Source of the DNA: an uncultured Pedosphaera sp.
GTDB taxonomy: Bacteria > Verrucomicrobiota > Verrucomicrobiia > Limisphaerales > Pedosphaeraceae
Direction: 5' to 3'
Assembly: GCA_903918755.1 (NCBI GenBank)
Contig: CAIXFN010000076.1
Coordinates: 1-64,000 of the forward strand
DNA length: 64,000 nt
This document shows positions 7,603 through 15,589 of the stretch, piece after piece (position 1 is the stretch's first letter; the number at the start of each line of letters is the position of its first letter). The translations under genes and the position numbers were made by a program. The notes under the pieces are model-generated. The model did no database searches, was not told the origin of the DNA, and worked only from the letters and a program-made list of their open reading frames with translations.

Positions 7603-9474
7603 TCAGGCTTTCCAGATCATCTCCGCCACCGAGCGGTTGGCCGGGATGAACGGCAGCACGTGCTCCGTGTAGGGCACGATGATATCCAGGAGGTAGGGCT
7701 GGTCCGAATCCAGCATGCGCTGGAGCGCGGCGCGCAGGTCCTTCTTGAACATGACCCGTTCCGCGGGAACGTTGAAGCCCTTGGCGATCGTGATGTAATC
7801 GGGATAGATCTGCTTCATGTTCTCGGGATCGCCAAGGTAGGTGTTGCCCCGGTTGCCTTGGTAAAAGCGGTCTTCCCATTGCACGACCATGCCCAGGTGC
7901 TGGTTGTTGAGAATCATCACCTTGGCGGCGATTTTCTCAATATGAGCGGTGGCCAGTTCCTGCACGTTCATGAGGAAGGAGCCGTCGCCATCGATATCAA
8001 TGACCTGGCGGTCGGGGCAGGCCACCTTGGCGCCCAGCGCGGCCGGATAGCCATAGCCCATGGCGCCCAAGCCGGCGCTGGTGAGCAATTGCCGCGGGAA
8101 TTTGTACTGATAATATTGGGCGGCCCACATCTGGTGCTGGCCCACGCCCGTGGTGATGATCGCGTCTCCCTTGGTCAACTCGTAAAGCATTTCGATGGCC
8201 ATCTGCGGGAGGATGACTTCGCTTTCCTTGCCGGCCAGATGGTCCTGCATGTGCTGGGAGGTGACCACTTCCTGGGTCACCCGGTAGCTCAGCGGGGCTT
8301 TGGCTTTCCAGGCGGCGATCTGCTGGTGCCAGGCGGAGAAATCCCGGACCAGCGGCTGACGATCCAAAATCGCATTCAAGCTTTCCAAGGCGAACTTGAT
8401 GTCGCTGACAATCGGCAGGTTGGCCGGCTTGTTCTTATTGATTTCCGAGGGGTCGATGTCGATATGGACGATCGTGCCGGTCTCGCAGAACTTGGCCACG
8501 TTGCCCGTCACGCGGTCATCGAACCGCACGCCGAACGCCAGGAGCAGGTCGGCGCCCTGGGCGATTTTTTGCGGCGGATCGGTCTGTTCGCTCTTGGGGG
8601 GGAATTCGCCGCTCACCGCCCAGTTGGCATACGCGGTGCCGTGCATGCCCAACCAGCGGAGGGACAAGGGATGCGTTTCGGGGAACGCGCCGCAACCCAT
8701 GATGGTGGTGGTGACGGGGATCTGGAGGCGTTCGGCGAACTGGCGCAACGCCTCACTGGCGTTGCCGGAGATCACGCCGCCGCCCACATACAACACCGGG
8801 CGCTCGGCCTTGGCGATCAAGCCGAGGATTTCATTGAGCTCCACATCGGTGGCCCGACGATCCGCGCCGTAGCCGCGCAAATTCAACTCGCGGGGAAACA
8901 CCGGCTGGGTGCGGGCCTGCTGAATATTTTTGGGCACGTCCACCACCACGGGGCCCGGGCGACCGCTCTGCGCGATGTAAAACGCTTCCTTGATCACGCG
9001 GGGGATGTCATTCACATCCGTGACCAGATAGCTGTGCTTCACGATCGGCAGGGTCATGCCGAAGAAATCCGTCTCCTGGAAACCGCCTTTGCCGATCATG
9101 GCCTGCGGCACCTGGCCGGTGACCACCACGAGCGGGATGGAATCCATGAAGGCATCGGCGATGCCGGTGACCAAATTCGTGGCGCCCGGACCGCTGGTGG
9201 CCATGCAAACACCGGCGCGGCCGGTGGCGCGGGCGTAACCCTCCGCGGCAAAGGACCCACCCTGTTCGTGGCGGGGCAGGATCGTCCGGATGGTGGAACG
9301 CGTGAGCGCCTGATGAAATTCCATGCTGGCCCCGCCGGGGTAGGCGAAGATGGCCTCAACGCCTTCGCGCTCCAGGCAGGCGATGAGAATTTCACTGCCG
9401 CTCATGGCCGGGCCAACTTCCGGGCGCGTCGGGGACGCGGCGGCTTTCTTATCGGACACCATAGTTGTGCTCAT
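7603..9474 (-). CDS. ilvB: Acetolactate synthase, large catalytic subunit
   Basis: The 623-residue TPP enzyme joins two pyruvates, or pyruvate and 2-oxobutyrate, in the first common step of Ile/Val/Leu synthesis. Motifs: the N-terminal block with [14 protein letters not shown], the TPP-activating Glu in [34 protein letters not shown], and the TPP/Mg site [15 protein letters not shown] near residue 495. Length is full for the catabolic-free, biosynthetic type. The first ~25 residues are poorly conserved; the start at 9474 is the first ATG after the upstream attenuator. No ilvN regulatory subunit follows: the next gene on the strand is unrelated. Regulation is very probably by the Leu/Val leader just upstream. 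Confidence 0.95.
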
Positions 9475-9512
9475 TCTATTCTTTCTTGTTTTGGCCAGCG
9501 GTCGCGGATTCC

Positions 9513-9546
9513 AAAAAAAACCCCACGACTGTTGCCAGCCGTGGGG
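9513..9546 (-). terminator. Attenuator terminator hairpin upstream of ilvB
   Basis: On the minus strand a stem CCCCACG/CGTGGGG (9540-9546 with 9521-9527), one mismatch, then CTG/CAG and a 4-base loop, is followed directly by eight T (9520 down to 9513). This is a textbook intrinsic terminator, but it lies only 38 bases before the ilvB start and after a Leu/Val-rich leader peptide. Its expected role is to abort transcription when branched-chain aminoacyl-tRNAs are plentiful. Confidence 0.85.
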
Positions 9547-9548
9547 TT

Positions 9549-9578
9549 TTTGTCGAAATCCGTTTTAGCTTCGACAAA
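9549..9578 (-). promoter_or_regulatory. Pause hairpin (9-bp stem) of the ilvB attenuator
   Basis: TTTGTCGAA (9549-9557) and TTCGACAAA (9570-9578) form a perfect 9-base-pair stem with a 12-base loop. The stem includes the last codons and stop of the leader peptide and ends at the foot of the terminator. A ribosome completing the leader would melt it; one stalled at the Leu/Val run would leave it free. It fits the 1:2 (pause) position of an attenuator. A competing antiterminator pairing was not worked out. Confidence 0.6.
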
Positions 9579-9648
9579 GACCGGCCGCGGCGGCGCCGGA
9601 TACGGCGACGCTTACTACCAGCAGCAGCAGTCGAACTTTGCCAAACAT
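9565..9648 (-). CDS. Leader peptide of the ilvB attenuator
   Basis: A 27-codon frame from ATG (9648) to TAA (9565-9567) encodes MFGKVRLLLLVVSVAV... ending GLCRS. Four consecutive Leu codons (all CTG) followed by Val-Val-Ser-Val-Ala-Val match the regulatory amino acids of ilvB attenuation. The stop sits inside the pause hairpin and the terminator follows at once. A signal-peptide-like gene fragment is the alternative, since the peptide is hydrophobic, but its position, codon run and neighbours argue for a leader peptide. The ATG begins only 7 bases after the proposed -10 box, so the message may be leaderless. Confidence 0.8.
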   Translation of the reverse strand: MFGKVRLLLLVVSVAVSGAAAAGLCRS

Positions 9649-9655
9649 TTAAAAC

Positions 9656-9685
9656 AGCCTAGGGCCGAATGGCGTAATCGGTCAA
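9656..9685 (-). promoter_or_regulatory. Putative sigma-70-type promoter for the ilvB leader
   Basis: On the minus strand TTGACC (9685-9680) and TAGGCT (9661-9656) are 18 bases apart. The -35 matches TTGACA at five of six positions; the -10 is weak. The leader-peptide ATG starts 7 bases beyond the -10, close to where transcription would begin. Confidence 0.5.
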
Positions 9686-10060
9686 GCCCTGATTTGGCGG
9701 TTTTTTGGTGGGGGGGAGAAGAGCTGGGAGCACCGCGCGGAAGCGAAAAGGGCCAGCAAGCAAATCTCCATACGTCGTTTGATCGTGGGGATGAATTTGG
9801 CACAACCCGCTCTGTATAGGGGGGTTGCGGATTTTTTATCGTTACCCGGGGTAGGCGCTCGTGCCTCGCGCCAACCCCGGGCTTCATGGCGCAACACCGT
9901 TGGTGCTGGGGAATGGGGGCATGACGGAAGCCGGCAGGTTGAAAATTCGTGCGTTGGCGGGCAGAATGAAATAGGGTGGAATCGTTAATCCAAACGCGTA
10001 CCCGCGGCGATTCGACCGGGGGCGCCAAACTGTGCAACCCGGTAAATGCTGGAGTGAAAT
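9686..10060. other. Intergenic region with a long hairpin
   Basis: No convincing gene. The main structure is a stem at 9845-9881: CCCGGGGT pairs with ACCCCGGG and, inside, GGCGC with GCGCC, with a 9-base loop. There is no T-run after it on either strand, so a terminator role is not supported. A GGAG at the right edge is the ribosome-binding site of the next gene. Confidence 0.5.
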
Positions 10061-14657: not shown

Positions 14658-15050
14658 TTATTCGGTCACGGTGATTTTGCGCGGCTTGACCTCCTCCGAT
14701 TTGGGGAGGTGCAAGGTAAGGACGCCCTGTTCGACCTGGGCGTTGATCCGAGCCGTGTCGATCGCAGGATCGAGCTCGAACACCCGGCGATAATCGGCGC
14801 CGAGCGATTCGCGGTAGAGCGGCGGTTGAACCGAATTGCCGGCGTTACGATGGCCGATGATCGTGAGTTCGTTACCCTCCAAGGTGATGTCCAGGCCGGC
14901 CTTGCTCACGCCCGGCAGATCGGCTTTGAGGACATAACCATCCTTGGTTTCGTAAATGTTGACTTCCGGGGTGACAAATTGGCGCGGGGCGCATTTGGAT
15001 TCCGGGGTGCAGATGGCCGATTTGGGATTTTCAGTATTGATAGCAGTCAT
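14658..15050 (-). CDS. Hsp20/alpha-crystallin small heat-shock protein
   Basis: A 130-residue holdase. After a short N-terminus, VNIYETKDGYVLKADLPGVS opens the alpha-crystallin domain, followed by LDITLEGNELTIIGHR, and the C-terminal GVLTLHLPKSEEVKPRKITV includes the conserved G-x-L motif. It prevents aggregation of unfolded proteins. It lies 68 bases after a second Hsp20 gene on the same strand; the two are probably one heat- or stress-inducible unit. Its N-terminal arm is shorter than usual, and the likely dimer partner is the upstream paralogue. Confidence 0.93.
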   Translation of the reverse strand: MTAINTENPKSAICTPESKCAPRQFVTPEVNIYETKDGYVLKADLPGVSKAGLDITLEGNELTIIGHRNAGNSVQPPLYRESLGADYRRVFELDPAIDTARINAQVEQGVLTLHLPKSEEVKPRKITVTE

Positions 15051-15118: not shown

Positions 15119-15589
15119 TTAGGCGACGTTGACTTGGATTTGCTTGGGCTTGGCGGCCTCCGTCTTCGGCAGGGTGACCGTGAGGACCCCGTCCGTGTAT
15201 TGGGCTTTGACCTGATCGGCCTTCACCGGCGTGGGCAAAACCACGCTGCGCTGGAAGTGGCCGACGAAACGTTCCGCGCGATAGGTTTCCGCGTTCGCGA
15301 ATTTCTCCTCGCTCTTGCGCTCACCGGAAATGCTCAAGGTGCCTTCGTTCAAGGAGATGTTGATGTCCTCGACCTTCAGGCCGGGAAGTTCCACTTTGAC
15401 CGTGAGATTCTCTTTGTCTTCAAACAGGTCCACGGCGGGATTCCATTGGCTCAGTTGTTGGGAACCACGATTCCAATCGCCGAAGGAGGTGTCAAACAAG
15501 CGATCCAGTTCATCACGCAGCGAGAACAGCCGGCCAAAGGTCGGGGCGGCGGTCAATTCGGGACGATGCCATCTTTTTAATACGTTCAT
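15119..15589 (-). CDS. Hsp20/alpha-crystallin small heat-shock protein
   Basis: A 156-residue small heat-shock protein with the full order: N-terminal arm (FGRLFSLRDELDRLFDTSFG), the alpha-crystallin domain with WNPAVDLFEDKENLTVKVEL, LPGLKVEDINISLNEGTLSI, and the C-terminal GVLTVTLPKTEAAKPKQIQV with its I/V-x-I/V tail. It is the promoter-proximal gene of the pair. Upstream on the minus strand lie a sigma-54-like promoter and two palindromes, so expression may depend on an enhancer-binding activator and not on a CIRCE/HrcA system, for which no site was found. Confidence 0.94.
   Translation of the reverse strand: MNVLKRWHRPELTAAPTFGRLFSLRDELDRLFDTSFGDWNRGSQQLSQWNPAVDLFEDKENLTVKVELPGLKVEDINISLNEGTLSISGERKSEEKFANAETYRAERFVGHFQRSVVLPTPVKADQVKAQYTDGVLTVTLPKTEAAKPKQIQVNVA

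Follow-up and report, generated by a model that had tools for sequence, protein, structure and literature searches.

The analyzed stretch, hereafter the window, comprises positions 1 to 64,000 of contig CAIXFN010000076.1 from an uncultured Pedosphaera sp. On its minus strand, from 9685 to 9513, a promoter, a short leader open reading frame (ORF), a hairpin, a terminator and a tract of eight T residues (T8) can be read directly in this order, followed by ilvB (7603..9474, minus strand; ATG at 9474-9472), the gene for the large subunit of acetolactate synthase (623 amino acids). The latter was assigned by TIGR00118 (685.5 bits; cut-off 538.35) and by the N, M and C TPP-enzyme domains of Pfam. 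The promoter consists of the -35 hexamer TTGACC (9680..9685) and the -10 hexamer TAGGCT (9656..9661), with an 18-nucleotide (nt) spacer between them and 7 nt from the -10 to the leader ATG. The leader ORF, MFGKVRLLLLVVSVAVSGAAAAGLCRS (9565..9648), counts 27 codons plus TAA (ATG 9648-9646, TAA 9567-9565), and its codons 7 to 12 (9613..9630) are four CTG codons followed by GTA GTA (LLLLVV). The sequences TTTGTCGAA (9578-9570) and TTCGACAAA (9557-9549) form the 9-base-pair (bp) core of a hairpin that carries the leader stop codon in its loop. Thereafter, CCCCACGGCTG-GCAA-CAGTCGTGGGG (9521..9546) folds into an intrinsic terminator of -24.4 kcal/mol, and the T8 tract occupies 9513..9520. A first-pass annotation had described the same promoter, 27-codon leader, 9-bp hairpin, terminator and T8, and its coordinates proved exact on re-reading. 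For the leader RNA (9672-9512), a folding energy of -68.2 kcal/mol was computed, compared with -51.0 ± 3.8 kcal/mol for 200 dinucleotide shuffles (z = -4.55), none of which (0/200) reached a value as low. As argued below, the element is very probably a ribosome-mediated transcription attenuator of ilvB.

Occurrence of the arrangement among relatives

The genome of the window and its relatives, 58 genomes in total, were searched. An ilvB-like match was found in 56 of them and the upstream region was examined in 51, with G006, G007, G010, G021 and G024 left out of the upstream comparison because their ilvB matches were split or distant only. Of the 51 order-level genomes examined, with the genome of the window counted, 49 have this arrangement ahead of ilvB. 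It is present in all 30 loci L001-L030, 29 of which were recognized by script and one (L004, in which a G precedes the TTGACG) separately. A covariance model built from these 30 loci was positive for 19 of 21 further order-level loci, being L040 and 18 of the 20 others. The two misses are L082, in which the region is cut off by the contig end, and L088. The conservation in relatives that the first-pass annotation had proposed as a check is thus borne out, as the small frame, its branched-chain amino acid codons, the hairpins and the spacing from promoter to ATG are all kept.

The link with ilvB also emerges from a much wider search. A 36-nt pattern, comprising the end of a segment C (defined below) and the terminator, occurs in 32 stretches among the genomes of 84,980 species, and each of the 32 is followed by ilvB in the same orientation, within 200 nt in 30 cases and at 207 and 215 nt in the other two. 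The records concerned are mostly named Verrucomicrobia, Verrucomicrobia subdivision 3, Limisphaerales or Pedosphaera, and a few are recorded under the names Akkermansia, Omnitrophota and Acidobacteria. Two negative results weigh against the attenuator reading. No such leader was found upstream of ilvB in L088, an order member whose ilvB has diverged (60% identity), and outside the order none of 29 ilvB loci carries it upstream. These 29 loci (27 of the same class, two of the same phylum) are the best-scoring after the window among 132 genomes with a match, and form an uneven sample. The model does match five of them weakly (9.9-23.1 bits), though never at a site upstream of ilvB and on its strand, and a simple detector, set to look for a terminator together with a small ORF containing four branched-chain codons in a row, found both in 0 of the 29.

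When 387 genomes of the phylum (two of them of the order) were searched with the covariance model, using filters that lose weak matches, 52 contained a match at an E-value of 0.01. Among 30 loci returned from this search, six have ilvB in their flanks: the window, L040 and four whose leaders differ and are Val-rich. The latter (L043, L051, L055 and L064) belong to the phylum, L051 also to the class, and carry differently built Val/Leu-rich leaders and terminators before ilvB genes that are more distant (39-47% identical to that of the window). The simple detector is positive for both features in all four, and these leaders perhaps have separate origins. Another locus of the same class, L041 (G369:C11:395-541), contains an attenuator-like element (43.8 bits) before a methyltransferase-like frame, and its flank yielded no ilvB.

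Promoter spacing and control codons

The position of the promoter relative to the leader is kept in relatives. The motif TTGAC is present in the 60 nt upstream of the start codon in 48 of the 49 aligned leaders. For L081 and L084, the start codons used are probably inner ones, which accounts for their long promoter distances. A transcript usually starts six to eight bases beyond the -10 element. Combined with the kept -10 spacing, this would place the RNA start on the start codon or directly beside it, and the leader transcript is therefore probably leaderless, its start site being read from the spacing. The first-pass annotation had raised this option from the 7 bases between the -10 and the ATG in the window, and the relatives lend it weight: the end of the best -10 lies 5-13 nt from the start codon in 46 of the 48 leaders with TTGAC (mode 8). 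As the promoter is a consensus match only, the same attenuator could also be transcribed from a site further upstream and carry an ordinary 5' untranslated region. This is unlikely, given both the -10 distances and the position of TTGAC: in 47 of 49 leaders it stands 34-45 nt upstream of the start codon, while it occurs in 30 of 4130 control slots of 12 nt from the same loci.

At least three consecutive Val, Leu or Ile codons occur in frame in 47 of the 49 leaders, and the run of such codons has a mean length of 4.84 in frame versus means of 2.27 and 1.27 in the two alternative frames. Valine alone makes up 27.2% of the 1208 leader residues. Moreover, it is often encoded by GTA, which represents 68 of the 205 Val codons in the leaders versus 21 of the 1372 in ilvB (30 loci; Fisher p = 1.5e-46). 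The GTA share is higher in the leader than in ilvB in 28 of 30 genomes, and in the window it amounts to three of five leader Val codons versus none of the 46 in its ilvB. A strong codon bias in attenuation leaders is noted in the literature, where rarity alone is called an oversimplified explanation (PMC1183508). A leucine triplet (at least three Leu codons in a row) is present in only three of the 49 leaders, those of the window, its genus mate L002 and L014. Since valine is common and the leucine triplet rare, valine appears to be the shared signal, with leucine added here. The proposal of a Leu/Val attenuator consequently stands for its valine part, which is shared and enriched in GTA, but its leucine run is a local feature. 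Judged from these codons, the element is better put as under Val control, and in this genus under Leu plus Val control.

The same frame bears on whether a ribosome is involved at all. A terminator with a structured element that works without ribosome reading, be it a riboswitch or a protein-binding leader, would leave the ORF incidental. The 9-bp B:C core (see below) and the terminator are indeed strong RNA features by themselves, and at permissive thresholds Rfam returned 13 matches in window positions 9300-9900 (601 bases), among them a leader and small RNAs. None of these exceeds its gathering score, the best leader family being His_leader (26.9 bits against a gathering threshold of 49), nor does any family do so in 11 ilvB loci (seven of the order and four with other leaders). 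The frame is kept in relatives, with its Val/Leu/Ile runs, its rare GTA and a stop codon 16-20 nt before the CCC of the terminator in 30 of 30 loci, which argues that the ORF is not incidental and renders a ribosome-independent element very improbable.

Competing RNA pairings

The 49 aligned leaders define three segments, A, B and C. Segment A, the protector, lies in the first codons of the leader (GTTCGACAAG in relatives) and pairs with segment B in its last codons (CTTGTCGAAG). In the window, A corresponds to GTTCGACTG (9628..9636), which is shorter than in most relatives, and B to GCCGCGGCCGGTCTTTGTCGAA (9570..9591) in the 3' part of the leader ORF; both are supported by covariation and a swap test. 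Segment C, TTCGACAAAAA (9547..9557), is the antiterminator partner of B, as supported by covariation. The antiterminator consists of B plus the leader bases GCCGNNGG upstream of it, paired with C and the 5' arm of the terminator, CCCACGGC. Pairings of the protector, the antiterminator and the terminator are mutually exclusive, as B is engaged either with A or with C and the terminator arm. The B:C hairpin core alone was also considered as the antiterminator and was dropped: it hardly overlaps the terminator, and this reading was replaced by B with C and the terminator arm, which passes the swap and covariation tests. The 9-bp hairpin reported by the first-pass annotation is thus present, but does not exclude the terminator by itself; the extended GCCGNNGG:CCCACGGC pairing, an addition that was not mentioned there, is needed.

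Both alternative pairings covary. For A:B, 74.3% of the cells in the alignment of 49 leaders form standard pairs and 62 cells are changed on both sides, compared with 24.2 in shuffles. For B with C and the arm (B:C+arm), 80.7% of the cells are paired, with 16 double-change cells versus 6.5 in shuffles. In either case, the number of cells paired and the covariation score were each matched by 0 of 500 shuffles. The terminator itself is paired in 98.7% of the cells in 30 sequences. The swap test, which does not depend on an alignment, points in the same direction. Segments of the same leader pair at -18.1 kcal/mol for A:B versus -14.0 kcal/mol when swapped between leaders, and at -23.2 versus -20.7 kcal/mol for B:C+arm, neither of which was reached in 20000 permutations. 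The controls do reach their own value, in 2385 of 20000 permutations for A with C+arm and in 14592 of 20000 for the Val region with C+arm. Compensation is also visible by eye in L020 and L016, where a changed terminator arm or adjacent stretch is matched by a changed leader. In the window, the antiterminator (-25.2 kcal/mol) and the terminator are nearly equal in energy, and in 35 of the 49 leaders the terminator is not the more stable of the two. The mutually exclusive terminator and antiterminator for which the first-pass annotation had advised folding the RNA hence exist and covary.

The hydrophobic run of the leader, which resembles a signal sequence (MFGKVRLLLLVV...), and the ending of CR plus one residue common to most leaders could also suggest a small peptide that functions in the membrane or is secreted, and is separated from ilvB by a terminator; this is barely credible, as the RNA pairing of B, a segment that shows covariation with two others, accounts for the common ending, and a peptide function would not predict the enrichment in GTA.

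Proposed mechanism and known systems

Sequence comparison shows the ORF and the codons it uses, both alternative pairings, the terminator, the spacing of the promoter and the link to ilvB, and the classical ilv attenuator put forward in the first-pass annotation finds its support in the covarying pairings and in the kept frame, codons and spacing. From these features we infer the start site, translation, stalling, termination and amino-acid response as follows. Transcription would start on the leader ATG or no more than a few bases from it. With plentiful charged tRNA-Val (here also tRNA-Leu), the ribosome would reach the leader stop and cover B, upon which the terminator forms before ilvB. 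If these tRNAs are short, the ribosome would stall on the CTG/GTA run and cover A, leaving B free to pair with C and the terminator 5' arm, so that RNA polymerase continues into ilvB. In an untranslated leader, A could pair with B and the terminator would form.

Folding of the leaders in each of these states agrees with this scheme. With a ribosome at the stop codon the terminator forms in 49 of 49 leaders, and with a ribosome stalled on the control run the antiterminator forms in 45 of 49; L040, for which the stalled state is meaningless because the longest run chosen lies too late, was counted as a failure. The free full-length RNA folds the terminator in 48 of 49 cases and at least six pairs between the start and the end of the leader in 46 of 49, a coarse measure for which any six pairs joining the initial 36 nt of the leader to its final 27 nt suffice. 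A fold of the longer window RNA (9672-9512) shows A:B.

Several observations nonetheless tell against the attenuator reading. Within the covariation analysis, the count of pairs with double changes was equalled by 11 of 500 shuffles for A:B and by 13 of 500 for B:C+arm, further pair types in the antiterminator were equalled by eight of 500, and the antiterminator partner slid by +3 still leaves 62.1% of the cells paired; the shuffles also ignore the relatedness of the genomes. Upon a slightly altered setting of the stalled state, 47 of 49 leaders pass, yet the same holds for 1114 of 1960 sequences with a shuffled leader 3' part. As shuffled leaders often pass, the state-by-state folding is kept as a consistency check only. 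Ribosome-free RNA that ends at the terminator 5' arm forms the antiterminator in 35 of 49 leaders and pairs of the leader start with B in only 15 of 49, so that the outcome for an untranslated leader depends on the folding order. Finally, the eight leader-start-to-end pairs counted in the window are not in the A:B register, and its best fold from the ATG combines the B:C core with the terminator.

Ribosome-mediated attenuation of ilvB is in itself already known, and the element of the window, well supported by comparison, adds to that kind. The Corynebacterium ilvBNC attenuator (leader MTIIRLVVVTARRLP; ilvB-II motif) works like the switch proposed here and shares a short leader rich in branched-chain amino acids with ilvB downstream. 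Its leader peptide is unlike that of the window, and the two were likened by their described features. Further parallels come from published descriptions of the ilvBNC system, which report overlapping antiantiterminator, antiterminator and terminator structures with leader-peptide attenuation of ilvB (PMC11857589, PMC10272879), and in C. glutamicum a transcript that begins one nucleotide away from the start codon of the leader (PMC11857589). Another difference concerns ilvN, which lies on another contig (C92) in the genome of the window. At this locus (L118, G000:C92), an ilvN-like small subunit (PF10369) is followed by an ilvC-like frame by eye; no similar leader was found upstream, and the leader model has no match on contig C92. 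The ilvB-OMG and Leptospira ilvB motifs, likened to the window by descriptions only, resemble it in an upstream ORF rich in branched-chain amino acids before ilvB. Such ORFs are described as predicted for both motifs, that of Leptospira with at least three consecutive Val codons, and attenuation by leader peptides is proposed for both (PMC10272879).

The ilvBN and ilvGMEDA attenuators of E. coli combine branched-chain control codons with alternative RNA segments and a terminator before the structural genes, while the element of the window has its own sequence and probably a leaderless start. The Sinorhizobium meliloti trpL attenuator, with Trp as control codons, shares the start at the leader ATG (probable in the window), but belongs to a trpE(G) operon and has an unrelated leader. 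Both E. coli attenuators are named in PMC1183508, and the trpL RNA is stated to begin with the ATG of its leader ORF (PMC7298713). According to a 2010 survey, leader-peptide systems had until then been demonstrated only in Proteobacteria and Actinobacteria, and the survey added Firmicutes (PMC2965389). Among the open-licence full-text matches listed, there is no description of leader peptides, attenuation or RNA motifs in Verrucomicrobia, Limisphaera or Pedosphaera, nor was the stem Verrucomicrobi- found in the motif-discovery papers queried for it. A probable ribosome-mediated attenuator with covariation for both competing structures is now placed in this phylum. Its 49 natural variants can serve to address the rarity of control codons and a possible need for leaderless initiation in the tight coupling of ribosome and polymerase.

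A broader picture can be offered tentatively, and we consider it somewhat less probable than even. The leaderless leader-peptide switch may be a standing valine sensor of ilvB across the Limisphaerales (Verrucomicrobia subdivision 3), in which the start at the ATG is a kept part of the device and the rare GUA sets its sensitivity. One genus would then have been retuned towards leucine, and the other Val-rich attenuators (L043, L051, L055, L064) would have arisen separately before more distant ilvB genes elsewhere in the phylum.

The genome of the window contains a second, weak match to the ilvB-leader model (29.9 bits) at L119 (G000:C14:7224-7341). It shows a TTGACG/TATTGT promoter, a GTG approximately 8 nt further, a frame with an FW pair and a strong terminator, and possibly represents another leaderless attenuator. 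The 111-amino-acid reading frame that it precedes has no Pfam match. Elsewhere in the window, two adjoining ORFs on the minus strand (14658-15050 and 15119-15589) are small heat-shock (Hsp20)-like by eye.
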